DNA from: Desulfotignum sp.
GTDB taxonomy: Bacteria > Desulfobacterota > Desulfobacteria > Desulfobacterales > Desulfobacteraceae
Assembly (NCBI GenBank): GCA_011389715.1
Contig: JAABTU010000444.1
Span: forward strand, 1 to 33,520
DNA length: 33,520 nucleotides
Direction of reading: 5' to 3'
The position numbers and the translations under genes were made by a program. The notes beneath the pieces are model-generated. The model made no database searches, was not told the DNA's origin, and saw nothing but the letters and a program-made list of their open reading frames with translations. Shown one piece after another: positions 1,982 to 11,994 of this stretch. Position 1 is the first letter of the stretch. Each line of letters starts with the position of its first letter.

Positions 1982-2731
1982 TCACGATGGCGTGATTGCA
2001 ATTTTCGCGTACAAAGGCAGATGATCCGATACCATCCGGGTTTCATAATCCATGGGTACTTTGACATCCTTCACGGAAAAATGACGGGAAATAAAAATAT
2101 GATCAATCCGCCTGACCGGCAGCCAGGAAGCAAAAGTGGGCCTTGGGTACCGCCTGTTTGTAAATACCTTCTGGATGTCAGAAAGATGCCGGCAAAGGGT
2201 TTTGTACACAAATGATCCCGGGCCCGCATTAAAATCACCACACAGGATCAGGGGCAGCCCGGAACAGAGGTCATTGCAGATCCAGCTGCTGCCGACCAGG
2301 GCCGCGGCCTGCAGCCTGCGGTCTTTGGCCCGCAGGCCCAGGTGGGTATTCAACACCTGTACACCTCCCAGTGGTGTTTCCACCCGGGCCATCATCACCC
2401 CCCGGTTTTCCAACGGTTTTGCTGCAAACGCGGCCGGCAGGCACCCGCAGTTCAGGTCATGAACGGGAAAACGGCTCAGGATGGCCAAACCGTATTTGCC
2501 ACTGGGGCTTTCCTTGAGTGTATAAAATTCAAAAGACATGTCAAGGTGATCAGCAATATAGGCTGCCTGGTTGATATAACCGGACCGCCGGTGACCGACA
2601 TCCACTTCCTGGAGTGCAATAATATCCGCATGGAACCCTGCAATCAGTTTTGCTGTTCTGGCAGGATTGTATCTGCGATCCATGTTCCGACAGGAATGAA
2701 TATTATAACTGAGAATTTTCAGGGTGTTCAT
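1982..2731 (-). CDS. endonuclease/exonuclease/phosphatase (EEP) family protein
   Basis: MNTLKILSYNIHSCRNMD...IIALQEVD...LILCGDFNAGPGS...RRIDHIFIS...VSDHLPLYAKI motifs. Confidence 0.88.
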   Translation of the reverse strand: MNTLKILSYNIHSCRNMDRRYNPARTAKLIAGFHADIIALQEVDVGHRRSGYINQAAYIADHLDMSFEFYTLKESPSGKYGLAILSRFPVHDLNCGCLPAAFAAKPLENRGVMMARVETPLGGVQVLNTHLGLRAKDRRLQAAALVGSSWICNDLCSGLPLILCGDFNAGPGSFVYKTLCRHLSDIQKVFTNRRYPRPTFASWLPVRRIDHIFISRHFSVKDVKVPMDYETRMVSDHLPLYAKIAITPS

Positions 2732-4346
2732 GGGATGTCCATCCATTTCGATAGTCTTGTATCAGGTGTCTGAGATCACTGGGGCGCAGATACTGGGCTT
2801 TTGTACTCAGGTTTCCGGGCAGCAATACGATGCCGCAGGTTTCTTCCCTGCCGGGTCCTCCGTGGGCACCGCCTTCGACATTGAATGACAGCGGTACCTG
2901 ATCAGGATCCCATCCTGAAATCACAATGTCACCGGCATCGGGATGGCGGCAGACGCGTGCCAGATCTTCGGCAGTCTGGGCACCAAATGGATGATCCTTT
3001 CCCAGGACCATAAAAAACTGCTGCTCCAGATCAAAGGTCCCCTGCTGGTTCATGGCAACAATGGAATGGTCGTCCTTGTAGAGCACCAGAGGGATATGAA
3101 CAGATTGAACCAGTTTTTGGGCAAAATCACGGATAAAATCTCTTGCAGGAGTACCTGGCAAATAAACATGACCCAGCGGGCCCATGGTGGTAATCTCTAT
3201 TTTATCCCCGGATACCGGTCCGCTATCCTTTTGCAGGTTTTCAGAAAACGGCCGGTTCATTATTAATGCCCGGGCCTTTTTATAGAGCCCGTCCAGAACA
3301 TTGTCATAAGAACCAGAGTGCACATGCTTTTCATCCGGATTCAGGTCATAGAAAGCGTTTCGTATGGCTTTTTTTACCGGAATCCCATACCGGCTACCGT
3401 ACCAGGTGACCGTTTCCTGCCCGTGATCGGAATAGATGATGGTCTCGTATTTTCGGCAGTTGGATTGATCGGCTGCTTTGCAGATATCCTTGATTGTGTC
3501 ATCAATGCCTTTGAGGCTCCAGTGGGCGAACATGGAACCCGGGTTCCTGCGATGGGCCTGTTCATCATAGCCCAGAAAACTGGCACATACAATGGGAGCC
3601 CCCCTGCCCACAGCTATCTTGGCCCGAAATGATACCAATTCTCTTAGTATGACACAAATTAAAATGCGGGCAGGGATAAATACGAGCTCTTTGATGAACT
3701 TTCTTCCCTGAACAAGACCTCGGAAAAAATCGGTCACCGCCAGAAAAAATTCAATAATGGTCACCACCAGAATACGAACAAACTTTCCCGTATGCAAAAG
3801 CAGCAAAAAAAGAAGTTTTAACGGATTCACGGTACTGGCAATGGATTCCAGTGTCATGGTCTGGGAGCAGTACCGGGCCTGTGCCGCCCCTCCGGTAAAA
3901 ATGGTGGAATAGGTATGCCCCCCGGACAGCAGCGGGGTGCCCGATCGTTTCAGACGGTCTCCGATATGGTTGGCTGTCTGGGGATAAAAACTGACGTGCC
4001 GCTGCTTTTGTTTTCGGTCGATAAACTCAAATGCGGGCACACAGGATTTGACCCCATAAAAAAGTTCTCCCTGGAAAGCCGGGGTGGTGGAAGGCATACC
4101 CGAATACATGGGTTTATACACATGATTGCCTGTGGTTATGAGCTTTCCCAGAAAAGGAAGCCTGCCTGCGTGCAGCGCTTTTTGAAACTGGGTCATGGAA
4201 AGTCCGTCTATCTGAATCAGCACCAAACCAGGCCCATCTTCTGCAGAATCCCAGGGCGGCAGACCCAGCAGCCGTAATGACCATTTGTTCCGGGAAACAT
4301 TTTTGCAAAACCATTTTACCATCTGTTTGATCCGGACAGACACCAT
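2703..4346 (-). CDS. alkaline phosphatase-superfamily / type I phosphodiesterase-nucleotide pyrophosphatase-like protein, membrane-associated
   Basis: GLVLIQIDGLSMTQFQKAL..., YSDHGQETVT, GGAHGGPG; hydrophobic central segments; overlaps EEP gene start (coupled). Confidence 0.75.
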   Translation of the reverse strand: MVSVRIKQMVKWFCKNVSRNKWSLRLLGLPPWDSAEDGPGLVLIQIDGLSMTQFQKALHAGRLPFLGKLITTGNHVYKPMYSGMPSTTPAFQGELFYGVKSCVPAFEFIDRKQKQRHVSFYPQTANHIGDRLKRSGTPLLSGGHTYSTIFTGGAAQARYCSQTMTLESIASTVNPLKLLFLLLLHTGKFVRILVVTIIEFFLAVTDFFRGLVQGRKFIKELVFIPARILICVILRELVSFRAKIAVGRGAPIVCASFLGYDEQAHRRNPGSMFAHWSLKGIDDTIKDICKAADQSNCRKYETIIYSDHGQETVTWYGSRYGIPVKKAIRNAFYDLNPDEKHVHSGSYDNVLDGLYKKARALIMNRPFSENLQKDSGPVSGDKIEITTMGPLGHVYLPGTPARDFIRDFAQKLVQSVHIPLVLYKDDHSIVAMNQQGTFDLEQQFFMVLGKDHPFGAQTAEDLARVCRHPDAGDIVISGWDPDQVPLSFNVEGGAHGGPGREETCGIVLLPGNLSTKAQYLRPSDLRHLIQDYRNGWTSHEHPENSQL

Positions 4347-4461
4347 GATTGTCCTTTAAACCTGTCATTTTTGTTGTCTGTGTTTTTTAATTTTCCATTG
4401 TCTGCACTGATGGCGGTGACATTTGTCCCAAGTCCATTAGTATATGCCTGATATGATGCAT

Positions 4462-4472
4462 TATACCCTGTC
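4462..4472. repeat. Direct repeat TATACCCTGTC copy 1 (copy 2 at 4529..4539)
   Basis: Exact 11-mer twice in the intergenic region upstream of the rhodanese operon. Confidence 0.7.
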
Positions 4473-4486
4473 ATCTTTGATAGAAA

Positions 4487-4504
4487 ATGCATGGTTCCAT
4501 GCAT
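4487..4504. promoter_or_regulatory. Palindrome ATGCATGG-TT-CCATGCAT
   Basis: Perfect 8-bp arms in the upstream region of the rhodanese/YeeE/P-ATPase operon. Confidence 0.6.
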
Positions 4505-4566
4505 ATGGATACAAATCATCATGTATTTTATACCCTGTCTCTGTCTTCCGGCACATACAAAAAAGC

Positions 4567-4585
4567 TGTATCCTGACAGGATACA
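4567..4585. promoter_or_regulatory. Palindrome TGTATCCTG-A-CAGGATACA, candidate operator
   Basis: Perfect 9-bp arms with 1-nt centre about 100 bp upstream of the rhodanese ATG; TGTATC recurs at 4591. Confidence 0.6.
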
Positions 4586-4685
4586 TACACTGTATCTTTT
4601 AAATGGGTAAAACCCCCCATTTACCCAACCGGCCCCTGCAACGTAAAGTAAATATAATAAATACACAATACGGAGGAAATCTTCC

Positions 4686-5780
4686 ATGAAAAAAAACAAC
4701 AGCGTAAGGTATGTCATCCTGGCTCTGGTCCTGTTTCTGGGCCTTTTGTGGTCATTGGGTTCAGCTTCCCAGCAGGAAAACGGCTATCCCAACGCCCGCT
4801 TTGTGGCATATCCCCATTGGCTCAAGGCCCATATAGATGATACAGATCTGGTCATTGCAGATGTAAGAACGGATGATCATTTTGACGGGGCGCTGATCCC
4901 CGGTGCCATGAGACTTCCCTGGTCTGCATTCCAGTTTAACGATATCGGCAATGATGTGGCATCTACTTTCATCGGTATTGCCCGGGCCCAGGATATCCTT
5001 GGCCGTCATGGTATTACCCCGAAAGATACCATCGTTCTTTACGATTCGGTGGAACGGGACGGCGGCGCCACCGCATCCTATGTTTTCTGGGTTCTGGATA
5101 TCCTGGGACATGAAAACAAAAAGATTCTCGTGCGTGGCATTGATGGATGGAAAGATGCCGGCTATGACCTGGTAACCACGCCTGGTGAAACCAAGCCGCT
5201 GCTTTATCAGGCGCCTGCAGAAAAGATACAAAATCACCAGCTGATTACCGGTGATTTTGTTTATAAGCAGCTCGGCGATTTCTGTTACCAGATCATCGAT
5301 GTGCGCTCACAAGAGGAATATATTGGTGAAAAGGGCACCAAAGGCCTTGACGGAACCCCATTGAAACTGGGGCATATCCCGACAGCTGTAAACATCAACT
5401 ATCAGGATGCATGGACAGATATGGACACAAAGGCGGTTAAACCCTATGCACAGCTCCAGACCCTTTATGCAGGCCTGGATGCATCCAAGGCGGTGATTGT
5501 TTACTGCAATTCAGGCAGACGCAGTTCCTTTTCCTACTTTATACTCCGTTTGATGGGATTTGACAGGGTGTACACATATGAACCGTCTTGGAAAGAGTGG
5601 GGGAATCCGGACAAATTTTTTCCGGTGGAAACCAGGGAAAACACATTGACAGGCAGCATGCTGCCCACCCCTTCAACAGCAAACCGGACCGTCTCAAGCC
5701 GGAAATCTGACACAAAAACATCAGAAGACAGATCCGGTTCAGGTAAACCTGCAGGCGGCTATATGTCATGCGGAGGCTGA
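4686..5780 (+). CDS. exported tandem-domain rhodanese (thiosulfate sulfurtransferase-like) with C-terminal CGG tail
   Basis: Hydrophobic N-terminus; two rhodanese repeats; active-site loop VIVYCNSGRRSS in second domain; tail ...SGSGKPAGGYMSCGG; SD GGAGG at 4672. Confidence 0.9.
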   Translation: MKKNNSVRYVILALVLFLGLLWSLGSASQQENGYPNARFVAYPHWLKAHIDDTDLVIADVRTDDHFDGALIPGAMRLPWSAFQFNDIGNDVASTFIGIARAQDILGRHGITPKDTIVLYDSVERDGGATASYVFWVLDILGHENKKILVRGIDGWKDAGYDLVTTPGETKPLLYQAPAEKIQNHQLITGDFVYKQLGDFCYQIIDVRSQEEYIGEKGTKGLDGTPLKLGHIPTAVNINYQDAWTDMDTKAVKPYAQLQTLYAGLDASKAVIVYCNSGRRSSFSYFILRLMGFDRVYTYEPSWKEWGNPDKFFPVETRENTLTGSMLPTPSTANRTVSSRKSDTKTSEDRSGSGKPAGGYMSCGG

Positions 5781-5782
5781 TC

Positions 5783-6310
5783 ATGGATAAAAAAAACATC
5801 TCGCCTCAGTATTGGCCGTGGCTTCCGGCTGCATTTGCTTTGGCAGGTATCATTGTATTTATTTTTGCGACATTCGGGCCGCCGGCCTCTTCCAGCGGTT
5901 TTGTCAGCTTAATAAAAGGGGCTGTCCAGACGGTTGCACCGGATTATGTTGAAAACAACCCCCATTATACCGCAATGCCTGACACAGGGTCCTGGCTCTT
6001 TGCCTTTGTTCTGGGCATGGCCATGGGTGGTTTTGCTGCCGGCCGCTCCGGCAGAATACCGGTAAAAGATATTCCAAAAATATGGGAAAAAAGGTTCGGG
6101 AACAGCCGGATCAAAAGGTTTGCAGCCACCTTTGCCGGTGGGTTCATCATACTTTTTGCCTCCAGACTGGCAGGCGGCTGTACCCTGGGGCTGTTTATTT
6201 CCGGATCAACACAGCTGGCTGTCAGCGGGTTGTATTTCGGGGTGCTTATCTTTGCCGTTGCCATGGTCACGGCCCGTCTCGTCTTTGGCAGCACAGGAAA
6301 GGAGGAATAA
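5783..6310 (+). CDS. YeeE/YedE (DUF395) family membrane protein, first half
   Basis: MDKKNISPQYWPWLPAAFALAGIIVFIFATFG...GGFAAGRSGRIPVKDIPKIWEKRFG...RLAGGCTLGLFISGSTQLAVSG. Confidence 0.88.
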   Translation: MDKKNISPQYWPWLPAAFALAGIIVFIFATFGPPASSSGFVSLIKGAVQTVAPDYVENNPHYTAMPDTGSWLFAFVLGMAMGGFAAGRSGRIPVKDIPKIWEKRFGNSRIKRFAATFAGGFIILFASRLAGGCTLGLFISGSTQLAVSGLYFGVLIFAVAMVTARLVFGSTGKEE

Positions 6311-6861
6311 TGGGTTCAGAAATATGGCTGGGGTTATTCTCCGGCATTGCCTTTGGATTTGTGATCCAGCGCGTCGGCGCAACCAATCCGGATAAAATGG
6401 CCAGGGCACATCTTATGATGGAAGGTGATATCCCGAAATTCATGCTCATGGCGGTTATCCTCTCGGCCATAGGGCTTTTGGGGCTTGAAGCCGCCGGTGC
6501 GGCCAATACCCGGGTGCTGCCCACCAGTCTGGTGGCCACGGGACTGGCAGGTATTTTGTTCGGTATTGGCTGGGGATTTTGCGGATACTGCCCGGGAACC
6601 ACCTGGGCTGCAGCAGGAGAGGGACGGTTGGATGCTGTGTTTGCCCTTATCGGCGGACTTGCCGGTGCAGCGGTTTTTGCCCACCTGCACGAATTTTTCA
6701 TTCCATTGCTGTATGATCCTTCCAATGTGGGCCAGATCACCCTTGCGGACTGGACAGGCAGCCGGCCTGCCGCGGTTGTTCTGCTGGTTTTTATATTCGG
6801 CCTGTGCATAGGCGCCATCAATTTTTTATGGAAGGAAAAAAATGGCAGGCAAACGCCCTAA
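6310..6861 (+). CDS. YeeE/YedE (DUF395) family membrane protein, second half
   Basis: MGSEIWLGLFSGIAFGFVIQRVGATNPDKMARAHLMMEGDIPKFML...GFCGYCPGTTWAAAGEGRLDAVFALIGGLAGA; TAATG overlap with previous gene. Confidence 0.88.
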   Translation: MGSEIWLGLFSGIAFGFVIQRVGATNPDKMARAHLMMEGDIPKFMLMAVILSAIGLLGLEAAGAANTRVLPTSLVATGLAGILFGIGWGFCGYCPGTTWAAAGEGRLDAVFALIGGLAGAAVFAHLHEFFIPLLYDPSNVGQITLADWTGSRPAAVVLLVFIFGLCIGAINFLWKEKNGRQTP

Positions 6862-7489
6862 TATATCTGTTCTTTTTCTGGTATCCCTTGTTTCAATGAC
6901 CGTCATCTGTTCCGGATGTCCCGGACCGCAGAAAGACAAGCAAACAAACCTGACAATTCCCAGAGGATATGTGGCCCGGCTTGACATCCAGCTAAGGGAC
7001 CGGTTGCTGGGATTTGGTCCCTTTGTGGGATATTATTTCAAGCCGGAAAATCCAGAGGATCTGACCCGGCTTTCTTTTGTCTGTTATAATGAAGATTTAT
7101 TTTACACCCGTGACCTGCCGGAGAACACCCTTTTGTTTGAAGGGGATGCGGTGTTGACCCAACTCGTGGACATCGGTTTTCCTCTGCCCGCAGATGACCG
7201 GATCAACCCGGTATTTTTTGGGGATGCACCCCAAAAATGGGTGAATGATCGCCCCCTGCCCCGGGATGAATACCGTCATTTTCATTCCTGTTATGATGGG
7301 TTGGGTCCTGTACTTGCAGGATATTGGATCCGACATGAAGGCAAAGGCTCCTTTACGTATGACATGGGCGGCCGTATTGGTCCGGACAGTCCCCTTTACC
7401 ACGAGGTACACCCCGGTATTGACCAGCAGTTTGCAAAAATTATGGAATTTGATGCAGGCCCGAACCCCGAACCCGGGTCGAAACAGTAA
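6842..7489 (+). CDS. putative exported/lipoprotein-like protein of unknown function
   Basis: N-terminal hydrophobic segment ...LVSMTVICSGCPGPQ (atypical lipobox); overlaps upstream YeeE gene, co-oriented. Confidence 0.65.
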   Translation: MAGKRPNISVLFLVSLVSMTVICSGCPGPQKDKQTNLTIPRGYVARLDIQLRDRLLGFGPFVGYYFKPENPEDLTRLSFVCYNEDLFYTRDLPENTLLFEGDAVLTQLVDIGFPLPADDRINPVFFGDAPQKWVNDRPLPRDEYRHFHSCYDGLGPVLAGYWIRHEGKGSFTYDMGGRIGPDSPLYHEVHPGIDQQFAKIMEFDAGPNPEPGSKQ

Positions 7490-7513: not shown

Positions 7514-9577
7514 ATGAACAAAAATTCCCATGACAGGAACCATGACAGCAACAACGCGGACCACGAAAACAATCAACGGAACCATGAGAGCAACCACCAG
7601 GACCACGATCATGCTGATCACCATGCACACATGGTAGCTGACTTCAGGCGCAGGTTCTGGATTTCATTGGTCCTTGGAATTCCCATTGTGCTGCTGTCTC
7701 CCATGATCCAGCAATTTATGGGTGTAAGCGGCCAATGGGACTTTACCGGTGATGCCTATATCCAGTTCGGATTTTCAACCATTGTCTTTTTCTATGGCGG
7801 GTGGCCTTTTTTAACGGGTCTTGTTGACGAACTCACCAAAAAGAACCCTGGCATGATGACCCTGATAGGCCTTGCCATTATTGTTGCATATACCTACAGT
7901 TCCGCCGTGGTTTTCGGTCTTGCGGGAAAAGTGTTTTTCTGGGAGCTTGCCACCCTCATCATCATCATGCTTTTGGGACACTGGATGGAAATGCGCTCGG
8001 TAATGGGTGCGTCCGGTGCTTTGGAGGAACTGGTCAAACTGATGCCGTCAACGGCCCTTCGCATCACCAAAGATGGGGAAACCGAAGAAGTCAAGGTATC
8101 ACAGCTTGAAAAAGGAGACAAGGTAGCTGTCAAACCCGGTGAAAAAATACCCACCGACGGCGTCATAGCAGATGGGCGGACCAGCATTGACGAATCCATG
8201 GTTACCGGTGAAAGCAGGCAGGTGGAAAAAACCACAGGGGATGAAGTTATCGGCGGCAGCATCAACGGTGATTCCGCCATTGCGGTGGAAATACAAAAAA
8301 CAGGTGACGACACCTATCTTTCCCAGGTTGTCGACATGGTGAAAAAAGCACAGGAATCCAAATCAAAGGCCCAGAACACGGCTGATCGTGCCGCTTTCTG
8401 GCTGACCATCATTGCGCTTGCAGCCGGGGGGACCACCCTGGGTGCGTGGCTTTTGGCAGGCAGAGAATTTGTTTTTTCCTTAGAACGGATGGTCACGGTA
8501 ATGGTGATTACCTGTCCCCACGCTTTAGGCCTGGCCGTCCCCCTTGTGGTGGCGGTATCAACCGCCATGGCGGCAAAAAAAGGACTGCTCATCAGAGACC
8601 GGACCGCTTTTGAAAAAGCAAAAAACCTTGATGTTGTGGTGTTTGATAAGACCGGCACCCTGACCCAGGGGCAGTTCGGGGTATCTGATATCCTGAATTT
8701 TGGCAGCCTTTCTGAAGAAGAGATTCTAACGCTTGCAGCCGGATTGGAAAGCCGCTCCGAGCATGCCATTGCCAAAGGCATTGTTGCGGCGGCAAAAGAC
8801 CGCAATGTGGATATCCCTGATCCTGAAAATTTTGAAGCCATTCCGGGAAAAGGTGCCAGGGCGGATGTGGCAGGCAAAAAAATCAAAGTGGTCAGCCCGG
8901 GTTTTTTAAAGGAACATGATCTGGCTGTGGAAAAAAGCCACCAGAACAAACTGGATCAGCTGGCACATGAAGGAAAGACCCTGGTTTATCTTCTGGTAGA
9001 TGATCAGATCAAAGCTGCGCTGGCTTTGGAGGATATGATTCGCGAATCGGCAAAAAAAGCCATATCCGGATTACAGGAGATGGGCCTCAAGGTAATGATG
9101 CTTACAGGCGATTCTGCCGCAGTGGCAAAAACCGTTGCAGACCAGCTGAACCTGGATGACTACATGGCGGAAATTCTGCCTGATGAAAAGTCGGACCAGA
9201 TAAAAAAGATCAGGCAGGAAAATAAGCGTGTGGCCATGGTGGGAGACGGGGTAAACGATGCCCCTGCCCTGGCTGAAGCTGATGTGGGCATTGCCATCGG
9301 CGCAGGCACGGATGTGGCCATGGAAGCAGCCGATATCGTGCTGGTGCACTCTGATCCCCGGGATGTCACCGCAGTGATTAAACTGTCTCGCGCAACCTAC
9401 CGGAAAATGGTGCAGAACCTCTGGTGGGCGGCCGGTTACAATGCCATTGCCATTCCCCTGGCAGCAGGGGTTTTATACCCGTTTTATCAGTTTTTGCTGC
9501 CGCCGGCGGCAGGTGCTGTTGTGATGTCCCTTTCCACGGTCATTGTGGCGGTCAATGCCAAGCTGCTATCCACATGA
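7514..9577 (+). CDS. copB: P1B-type heavy-metal ATPase, CPH motif (CopB-like), His-rich N-terminus
   Basis: TCPHALGLAVPL, TGES, DKTGTLTQG, GDGVNDAPAL; N-terminus NSHDRNHDSNNADHENNQRNHESNHQDHDHADHHAH instead of an HMA domain. Confidence 0.93.
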   Translation: MNKNSHDRNHDSNNADHENNQRNHESNHQDHDHADHHAHMVADFRRRFWISLVLGIPIVLLSPMIQQFMGVSGQWDFTGDAYIQFGFSTIVFFYGGWPFLTGLVDELTKKNPGMMTLIGLAIIVAYTYSSAVVFGLAGKVFFWELATLIIIMLLGHWMEMRSVMGASGALEELVKLMPSTALRITKDGETEEVKVSQLEKGDKVAVKPGEKIPTDGVIADGRTSIDESMVTGESRQVEKTTGDEVIGGSINGDSAIAVEIQKTGDDTYLSQVVDMVKKAQESKSKAQNTADRAAFWLTIIALAAGGTTLGAWLLAGREFVFSLERMVTVMVITCPHALGLAVPLVVAVSTAMAAKKGLLIRDRTAFEKAKNLDVVVFDKTGTLTQGQFGVSDILNFGSLSEEEILTLAAGLESRSEHAIAKGIVAAAKDRNVDIPDPENFEAIPGKGARADVAGKKIKVVSPGFLKEHDLAVEKSHQNKLDQLAHEGKTLVYLLVDDQIKAALALEDMIRESAKKAISGLQEMGLKVMMLTGDSAAVAKTVADQLNLDDYMAEILPDEKSDQIKKIRQENKRVAMVGDGVNDAPALAEADVGIAIGAGTDVAMEAADIVLVHSDPRDVTAVIKLSRATYRKMVQNLWWAAGYNAIAIPLAAGVLYPFYQFLLPPAAGAVVMSLSTVIVAVNAKLLST

Positions 9578-10328: not shown

Positions 10329-11093
10329 ATGCTGCAACTACAAAATATTACCTTTACAGTCCCGGCATCGGATTCAGGCACAGAACCGCCGGCCGAGCAG
10401 ACAATTATCAATGATGTGAGTTTTGCGTTTGAACAAGGGGGTTTTTATGCCATCACCGGCCCCAACGGATCGGGCAAGACCACCATTGCCAAATTGATCA
10501 TGGGCATCAATGCACTCACAGAAGGAAAGATTGTTTTCAACGGAAAAGATATCAGTCGTCTTCCCATAAATGAACGGTCCAACGCCGGCATTGTTTATGG
10601 ATTTCAACATCCGGCACGGTTCAAGGGAACCACCTTCCGGGACCTGTTATCCATTTCCCTGGGATCTGATGATGAACAAAAACTGGTGAATATCATTTCC
10701 AGAGTCGGGGTCTGTTCCATGGATTTTTTAGACAAACCTGTGGACAGCAAACTGTCGGGCGGTGAGATCAAAAAAATCGAACTGGCCACCGTGATTGCCA
10801 GAAATCCAAAGGTGGCTATTTATGATGAACCAGACACCGGCATCGATCTTTGGACCATCGGTCCCATGGTGGATCTGCTCAAACGCGAACAAAAAGAAAA
10901 CAACACCACCACCATTGTGGTCAGTCACAATAAAACATTTCTGGAAGCAGCCGATACCCTGCTTTTGATCAAAAAAGGAAAAATCGCCTATACCGGCGAT
11001 CTGGCAGGTGCCATGCCCATGCTGGATGATTTAAGTGTCTGTACGTTTGATGAATTATGCCAAGGAGAAGATGATGCTCAATGCTATCGATAA
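10329..11093 (+). CDS. sufC: SufC-like Fe-S assembly ABC ATPase
   Basis: GPNGSGKTT Walker A, LSGGEIKKIELATVIARNPKVAIYDEPDTGID; next to SufB-like gene. Confidence 0.88.
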   Translation: MLQLQNITFTVPASDSGTEPPAEQTIINDVSFAFEQGGFYAITGPNGSGKTTIAKLIMGINALTEGKIVFNGKDISRLPINERSNAGIVYGFQHPARFKGTTFRDLLSISLGSDDEQKLVNIISRVGVCSMDFLDKPVDSKLSGGEIKKIELATVIARNPKVAIYDEPDTGIDLWTIGPMVDLLKREQKENNTTTIVVSHNKTFLEAADTLLLIKKGKIAYTGDLAGAMPMLDDLSVCTFDELCQGEDDAQCYR

Positions 11094-11994
11094 ACAAGTG
11101 TTAAAAGAAGTCGCTGATCTGGAAGGTATCCCCAAAGGGGCCTACAATATCCGGAAAAACGGAAAACTGGAAGGCCGGGAGGTTTCCGCCAACATCAACA
11201 TCGAAACCAATGAAAAAGGTGACGGCATTGTCATCGATATCAAGCCGGGAACGGTGGATGAATCGGTTCATATCCCGGTAATTCTGTCCCAGGCGGGCCT
11301 GCATGATGTGGTGTATAATACCTTTATTATCGGGGAGGGATCTGATGTCACCATTGTTGCCGGATGTGGTATTCACTGCGGCGGTGATGCATCTGAAGGC
11401 CATTCCGGTATCCATGAATTTCACATCAAGGCCGGCGCAAAGGTCAAATATGTTGAAAAGCATATTGCCATTGGCGAGGGCAGCGGCAAACGCATATTAA
11501 ATCCCACAACAAAGGTGTTTATGGAGGAGAATGCCCAGGCACAGATGGAACTGACCCAGCTGGGGGGTGTGGATGAAGCAAAACGCGTCAATGAAGCAAC
11601 TATCGGTGCCGGCAGTGTGCTGCTGATCACGGAACGGGTGATGACCGAAAAAGAACAGTCTGCAGAATCCAGAAATGAGATCACCCTGGCAGGAACAGAC
11701 AGCAAAACCAATATTGTTTCCCGCTCTGTCATAAAAGGCAGCTCCTCCCAGGATTTTTATGTCAACCTGACGGCAAAAGCCAAATGCTACGGCCATATTG
11801 AATGCGACGCCATAATCATGGACAATGGTATCAACCAGACCATACCGGCTCTGCGGGCCCTGCACCCGGATGCGGAGCTGACCCACGAAGCCTCCATCGG
11901 CAAAATCGCCAATGACCAGTTAATGAAGCTCATGAGTCTCGGCCTCGATTATGACCAGGCTGTCAACCGCATCATACAGGGATTTTTGCGCTGA
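11071..11994 (+). CDS. sufB: SufB/SufD-family Fe-S cluster scaffold protein
   Basis: GCGIHCGGDASEGHSGIHEFHIKAGAKVKYVEKHI...ALHPDAELTHEASIGKIANDQLMKLMSLGLDYDQA; overlaps sufC end. Confidence 0.87.
   Translation: MMLNAIDKQVLKEVADLEGIPKGAYNIRKNGKLEGREVSANINIETNEKGDGIVIDIKPGTVDESVHIPVILSQAGLHDVVYNTFIIGEGSDVTIVAGCGIHCGGDASEGHSGIHEFHIKAGAKVKYVEKHIAIGEGSGKRILNPTTKVFMEENAQAQMELTQLGGVDEAKRVNEATIGAGSVLLITERVMTEKEQSAESRNEITLAGTDSKTNIVSRSVIKGSSSQDFYVNLTAKAKCYGHIECDAIIMDNGINQTIPALRALHPDAELTHEASIGKIANDQLMKLMSLGLDYDQAVNRIIQGFLR

Follow-up and report, generated by a model that had tools for sequence, protein, structure and literature searches.

We describe a predicted exported two-domain rhodanese of Desulfotignum sp. 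that ends in a C-terminal arm with an invariant near-terminal cysteine, and whose gene is strictly linked to the two genes of a split YeeE/YedE-type sulfur transporter. This arm is probably a SoxY-like persulfide carrier of independent origin, relaying sulfane sulfur from the catalytic Cys274 of the rhodanese to the cysteines of the YeeE pair for import. The stretch of DNA analysed (hereafter the window) comprises 33,520 nucleotides, and its relevant features are the following:

4686..5780, + strand: putative exported rhodanese of 364 aa with two domains and a cysteine-bearing C-terminal arm (PF00581 twice; N-terminal hydrophobic segment at residues 10-27)
5505..5525, + strand: catalytic loop CNSGRRS with Cys274, second rhodanese domain (Cys274 kept in 29/29 aligned orthologues)
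5682..5753, + strand: low-complexity variable linker, residues 333-356, rich in Ala/Ser/Gly/Pro/Lys/Thr (conservation and composition)
5754..5777, + strand: conserved arm tip GGYMSCGG, with invariant Cys362 at 5769-5771 (TGC)
5772..5776, + strand: GGAGG, likely Shine-Dalgarno sequence of the next gene, within two Gly codons (from the sequence)
5783..6310, + strand: yeeEa, predicted to encode one half of a YeeE/YedE sulfur transporter split over two genes, with invariant Cys133 in AGGCTLG (PF04143 positions 173-308; conservation)
6310..6861, + strand: yeeEb, predicted other half, with invariant Cys94 in GYCPGT (PF04143 positions 23-147; conservation)
6842..7489, + strand: 215-aa putative lipoprotein of no recognised fold, with invariant Cys26 (lipobox position) and Cys81 (cysteine columns)

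The rhodanese ORF closes with a stop codon at 5778-5780, its translation ending in SGSGKPAGGYMSCGG. In a Pfam scan, the protein matched the Rhodanese family PF00581 in two stretches (110.7 bits, above the curated cut-off); the first domain lacks the catalytic cysteine, and the second carries CNSGRRS. By domain content and catalytic loop it is assigned to the rhodanese/thiosulfate sulfurtransferase family, with a predicted activity, and its signal sequence points to a location outside the cytoplasm. A preliminary description of this DNA had reported a rhodanese with a low-complexity linker and a GGYMSCGG end, and both this architecture and the position of the cysteine codon were correct. Solved rhodanese relatives in the PDB can be aligned to approximately residue 319 at most, and none of them matches the arm. 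AlphaFold2 gave poor models for both the rhodanese and the lipoprotein (mean pLDDT 42.8 and 37.2, respectively), the alignments being too shallow.

Close relatives of the rhodanese occur in Desulfotignum metagenome-assembled genomes and in Desulfatitalea. Across 390 genomes of the class, 39 relatives with at least ~50% identity, the window's own included, were aligned to the last residue, contig-edge fragments being additional to these; nine further relatives from outside the class, found among 395 genomes of the phylum, were aligned through residue 364. The end GY.SCGG is present in 48/48 distinct orthologues whose 3' end is intact, with identities as low as ~49%, a set that spans several families of one phylum, from which all the rhodanese relatives examined come; this count was redone without any filter on CGG ends. 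Residue 360 is the sole variable position within the motif, being V, I, M, T or A. The mean majority identity, calculated on 17 non-redundant orthologues preselected for CGG ends, was 0.73 and 0.79 for domains 1 and 2, respectively, 0.38 over the linker and 0.94 over the final eight residues. Counted from the last conserved EWG, the arm is 50-62 residues long, and the linker ahead of the tip is unalignable among orthologues. Conservation of the tail and of its cysteine had been set in the preliminary description as the test of a functional arm; the tail is present and Cys362 invariant throughout, which indicates that this ending did not arise by chance.

When homology was ignored, the pattern GY(x)SCGG followed by a stop was found in the 390 genomes only at the rhodanese gene, barring CRISPR spacers in one genome, and thus a general C-terminal sorting tag is ruled out. 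In the window's own genome, SCGG followed by a stop has one further occurrence, which does not coincide with the end of any listed ORF. A tail common to other rhodaneses is likewise ruled out, as the next-best relatives (multi-domain, ~25-36% identity) are tailless; matches to plasmid-borne sulfurtransferases end short of the tip. Neither the tailed rhodanese nor its motif was found in the literature searched, which excluded most subscription journals.

The CRISPR copies belong to an array of genome G005, in which a 40-nt spacer appears twice (L081, 6933-6972 and 7522-7561). This spacer is self-matching, being identical to the genome's own rhodanese-yeeE junction (L082, 7135-7174), and it has the orientation of the mRNA provided that transcription of the repeats runs towards GAGAC. 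As a separate observation, four other rhodanese-domain genes of the window's own genome, on contigs C19, C294, C37 and C43 (L001, L003, L010 and L012), contain in-frame TGA codons within the open frame or the matched stretch, possibly encoding selenocysteine.

The Sulf_transp domain and the conserved channel cysteines assign yeeEa and yeeEb as predicted halves of a YeeE/YedE transporter, and Cys94 of YeeEb aligns with the conserved GGC cysteine of the solved YeeE 6leo. The preliminary description had placed the rhodanese beside a YeeE pair; this linkage proved obligatory, with yeeEa directly following the rhodanese in 28/28 loci with flanks, and each half carries one invariant cysteine. In 27 of these 28 loci yeeEb comes next, the remaining locus ending at a contig edge. 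Orthologues of yeeEb (at least 60% identity) are found, among the 390 genomes, in exactly the 40 that also have the rhodanese, contig-edge fragments aside, and a rhodanese accompanies other split YeeE pairs (at most 45% identity) in 0/10 loci examined. Clustering of the loci, in which fused ORFs caused a P-type ATPase to be merged into a YeeE cluster, gave no further family in at least three loci beyond the rhodanese, yeeEa, yeeEb and the lipoprotein.

The 215-aa putative lipoprotein is the fourth member of the conserved module, as a homologue lies just downstream or upstream of rhodanese-yeeE in most of the 28 loci. Profile searches returned no Pfam or NCBIfam match and no PDB relative, and the invariant HFHS, Cys81, FTYDMG and EFD motifs hint at a family not yet characterised, whose members may bind metals or thiols. 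In one Desulfotignum metagenome-assembled genome (L016, 7157-7807), the genes for the lipoprotein and the following P-type ATPase appear frameshifted, perhaps through assembly errors.

The cysteine content of the rhodanese bears directly on the role of the arm: Cys274 and Cys362 are its sole invariant cysteines, and in 36/48 orthologues there are just two cysteines within the last 320 residues. A sulfur relay is supported by this pair, by the strict yeeE linkage and by the single invariant cysteine in each YeeE half; by the retention of the tip in all orthologues while the linker preceding it is not conserved; and by SoxY, whose known sulfur-binding cysteine likewise sits in a C-terminal Gly-rich tip, GGCGG (PMC6067878). 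Counting against a SoxY-like arm, the tip is SCGG rather than GGCGG, and the genome, 79% complete, yielded no TusA as a candidate cytoplasmic acceptor. The swinging-arm sulfur carrier put forward in the preliminary description is partly supported, all of its predictions at the sequence level being borne out.

The following scheme, which covers the chemistry, the direction of transfer, the docking, and where the sulfur comes from and goes to, is our inference. The rhodanese would act as a periplasmic sulfurtransferase carrying its own tethered sulfur carrier, with thiosulfate, polysulfide or a persulfide supplying sulfane sulfur to Cys274 of the second domain. The flexible tail, 50-60 residues long, would swing Cys362, within the G-Y-x-S-C-G-G tip, to the Cys274 active site, where Cys362 would pick up the sulfur in persulfide form; the tip, small and Gly-flanked, would then enter the periplasmic vestibule of YeeEa/YeeEb and hand its sulfur to Cys94 of YeeEb and Cys133 of YeeEa, the channel cysteines, for cytoplasmic delivery. 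SufC-like and SufB-like genes lie at 10329-11994 of the window, after the module and an ATPase, and two ORFs matching them in size (254 and 319 aa) come directly after the module in Desulfatitalea (L020); these genes are possibly a sulfur sink or consumer.

A less likely, though credible, role for the tip is that of a docking or recognition tail that holds the rhodanese at the transporter, with sulfur passing as thiosulfate or polysulfide; the tip could plug the YeeE vestibule, or bind the lipoprotein, e.g., through a disulfide with Cys81. The invariance of the entire tip, including Gly358, Tyr359 and Ser361, goes beyond the needs of a bare carrier thiol and speaks for docking, as does the lipoprotein being a regular neighbour with an invariant Cys81. 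However, a thiol is rarely required for docking alone, and the simpler reading of an invariant cysteine next to Gly-Gly, on a sulfurtransferase adjoining a sulfur channel lined with cysteines, is that of a carrier.

It is improbable that Cys362 is instead the rhodanese's own resolving or acceptor thiol, or a protector of its active site, with no carrier function towards YeeE. By this route, Cys362 would attack the Cys274 persulfide, releasing sulfide and leaving a Cys274-Cys362 disulfide, which would agree with most orthologues having only the two invariant cysteines; yet ordinary rhodaneses manage without such a thiol, and neither the strict coupling to the YeeE pair nor the Gly-Gly end would be accounted for.

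The downstream P-type ATPase raises the further alternative of a metal-handling complex, in which Cys362 together with Cys274 or the lipoprotein would bind Cu(I), sulfur transfer serving copper trafficking with this neighbouring CopB-type pump. A P1B ATPase that carries a CPH motif and a His-rich N-terminus does follow the module in Desulfotignum and at locus L099, and at three other loci (L096, L128 and L129) a P1B ATPase is fused in frame to YeeEb. Nevertheless, within the flanks read the ATPase is absent from most loci outside the genus, yet the tail is universal, and we regard this alternative as very improbable. The fusions themselves, which have no stop between YeeEb and the CopB-type P1B ATPase, lie on the minus strand at 3590-6295 (L096), 2397-4916 (L128) and 2709-5315 (L129), in three genomes of two families, and their ATPases are ~70% identical to that of the window at 7514-9577; as sulfur-transporter/metal-pump fusions, they tie the module to copper handling.

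The overlap of the tip with a ribosome-binding signal was also considered. As had been proposed, a Shine-Dalgarno sequence is embedded in the terminal Gly codons: GGAGG sits just ahead of the start codon (ATG, 5783) of the gene that follows, and the codon of Gly363 is GGA in 45/48 orthologues. That the terminal CGG merely reflects this signal is barely conceivable, and as sole explanation of the tip it is refuted, for although nearly all orthologues have GGAGG inside the Gly codons, a Shine-Dalgarno sequence needs no Gly358, Tyr359, Ser361 or Cys362, residues kept through free exchange of synonymous codons (GGN, TAT/TAC, four TCN codons and TGC/TGT, respectively), and in two lineages, L105 (TGT GGC GGA TAG ggggcgatc ATG) and L107 (TGC GGC GGG TAG ggggaaggccg ATG), Gly363 is encoded by GGC and the Shine-Dalgarno sequence lies past the stop, with SCGG unchanged. 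Synonymous change and the relocated signal in these two lineages indicate selection on the peptide in its own right.

As to its meaning, we give about even weight to the module being an undescribed periplasm-to-cytoplasm sulfur import system, made of an arm-bearing rhodanese, an obligate split YeeE and a dedicated lipoprotein. If so, an arm-cysteine persulfide relay into a YeeE channel, so far proposed only for SoxY/SoxT, would become testable in a four-gene system, and sulfane sulfur from outside would have a defined way into sulfate reducers. Because the genes for donor, arm and channel are adjacent and inherited together, the relay could be tested by one cysteine mutant and a persulfide assay.

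The module shares individual traits with several known sulfur-handling systems. DsrC carries a functional cysteine near its C-terminus on a flexible sulfur-carrying arm, and the tailed rhodanese resembles it in its near-terminal cysteine on a flexible arm; however, DsrC is cytoplasmic, has another fold and two tail cysteines, and bears no sequence relation to the rhodanese, which has one tail cysteine only and gave no DsrC match in the Pfam scan. With the tandem-domain thiosulfate sulfurtransferases (SseA/rhodanese; PDB 8k55, 3p3a and 1uar) it shares two domains, the second catalytic, but differs by its extra arm, the alignment to these structures ending at approximately residue 319. Like YeeE/TsuA (6leo) and SoxT, the predicted transporter is built of PF04143 halves, each of which has a conserved channel cysteine; unlike them, it is encoded in two genes and neighbours a tailed rhodanese, not a TusA-like YeeD or Sox proteins.

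YeeE-TusA-DsrE clusters occur in sulfate reducers (PMC13293266, PMC12998232, PMC13047784). The module was not assigned to these YTD clusters, given that tusA/dsrE-like genes are not among the recurring families of the loci and the window's own genome (79% complete) gave no TusA. Both arrangements tie a YeeE-type importer to sulfur transferases, as in the yeeE-tusA-dsrEFH type II cluster of Desulfobacterota (PMC13293266, PMC13047784); nevertheless, the YTD partners are cytoplasmic TusA and DsrE proteins, whereas here they are a predicted exported rhodanese and a putative lipoprotein.

A parallel to the proposed relay is SoxY, which has been proposed to hand sulfur to the cysteines of SoxT, a YeeE-type channel whose donor has only been conjectured (PMC11582611); the proposed partner of the tailed rhodanese is likewise a YeeE pair. 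A search for SoxY in the window's own genome gave no match, with the control of that search also silent. The SoxY domain PF13501 is absent from the tailed rhodanese, in which the Pfam scan detected Rhodanese only, and since both domain and exact motif differ, the protein is not a member of the SoxY family. As in SoxY, the cysteine sits on a C-terminal Gly-rich flexible tip, and a role in periplasmic sulfur metabolism is predicted here; unlike SoxY, the arm is borne by a rhodanese having its own catalytic cysteine, and its tip is GY.SCGG in every orthologue, similar to GGCGG.
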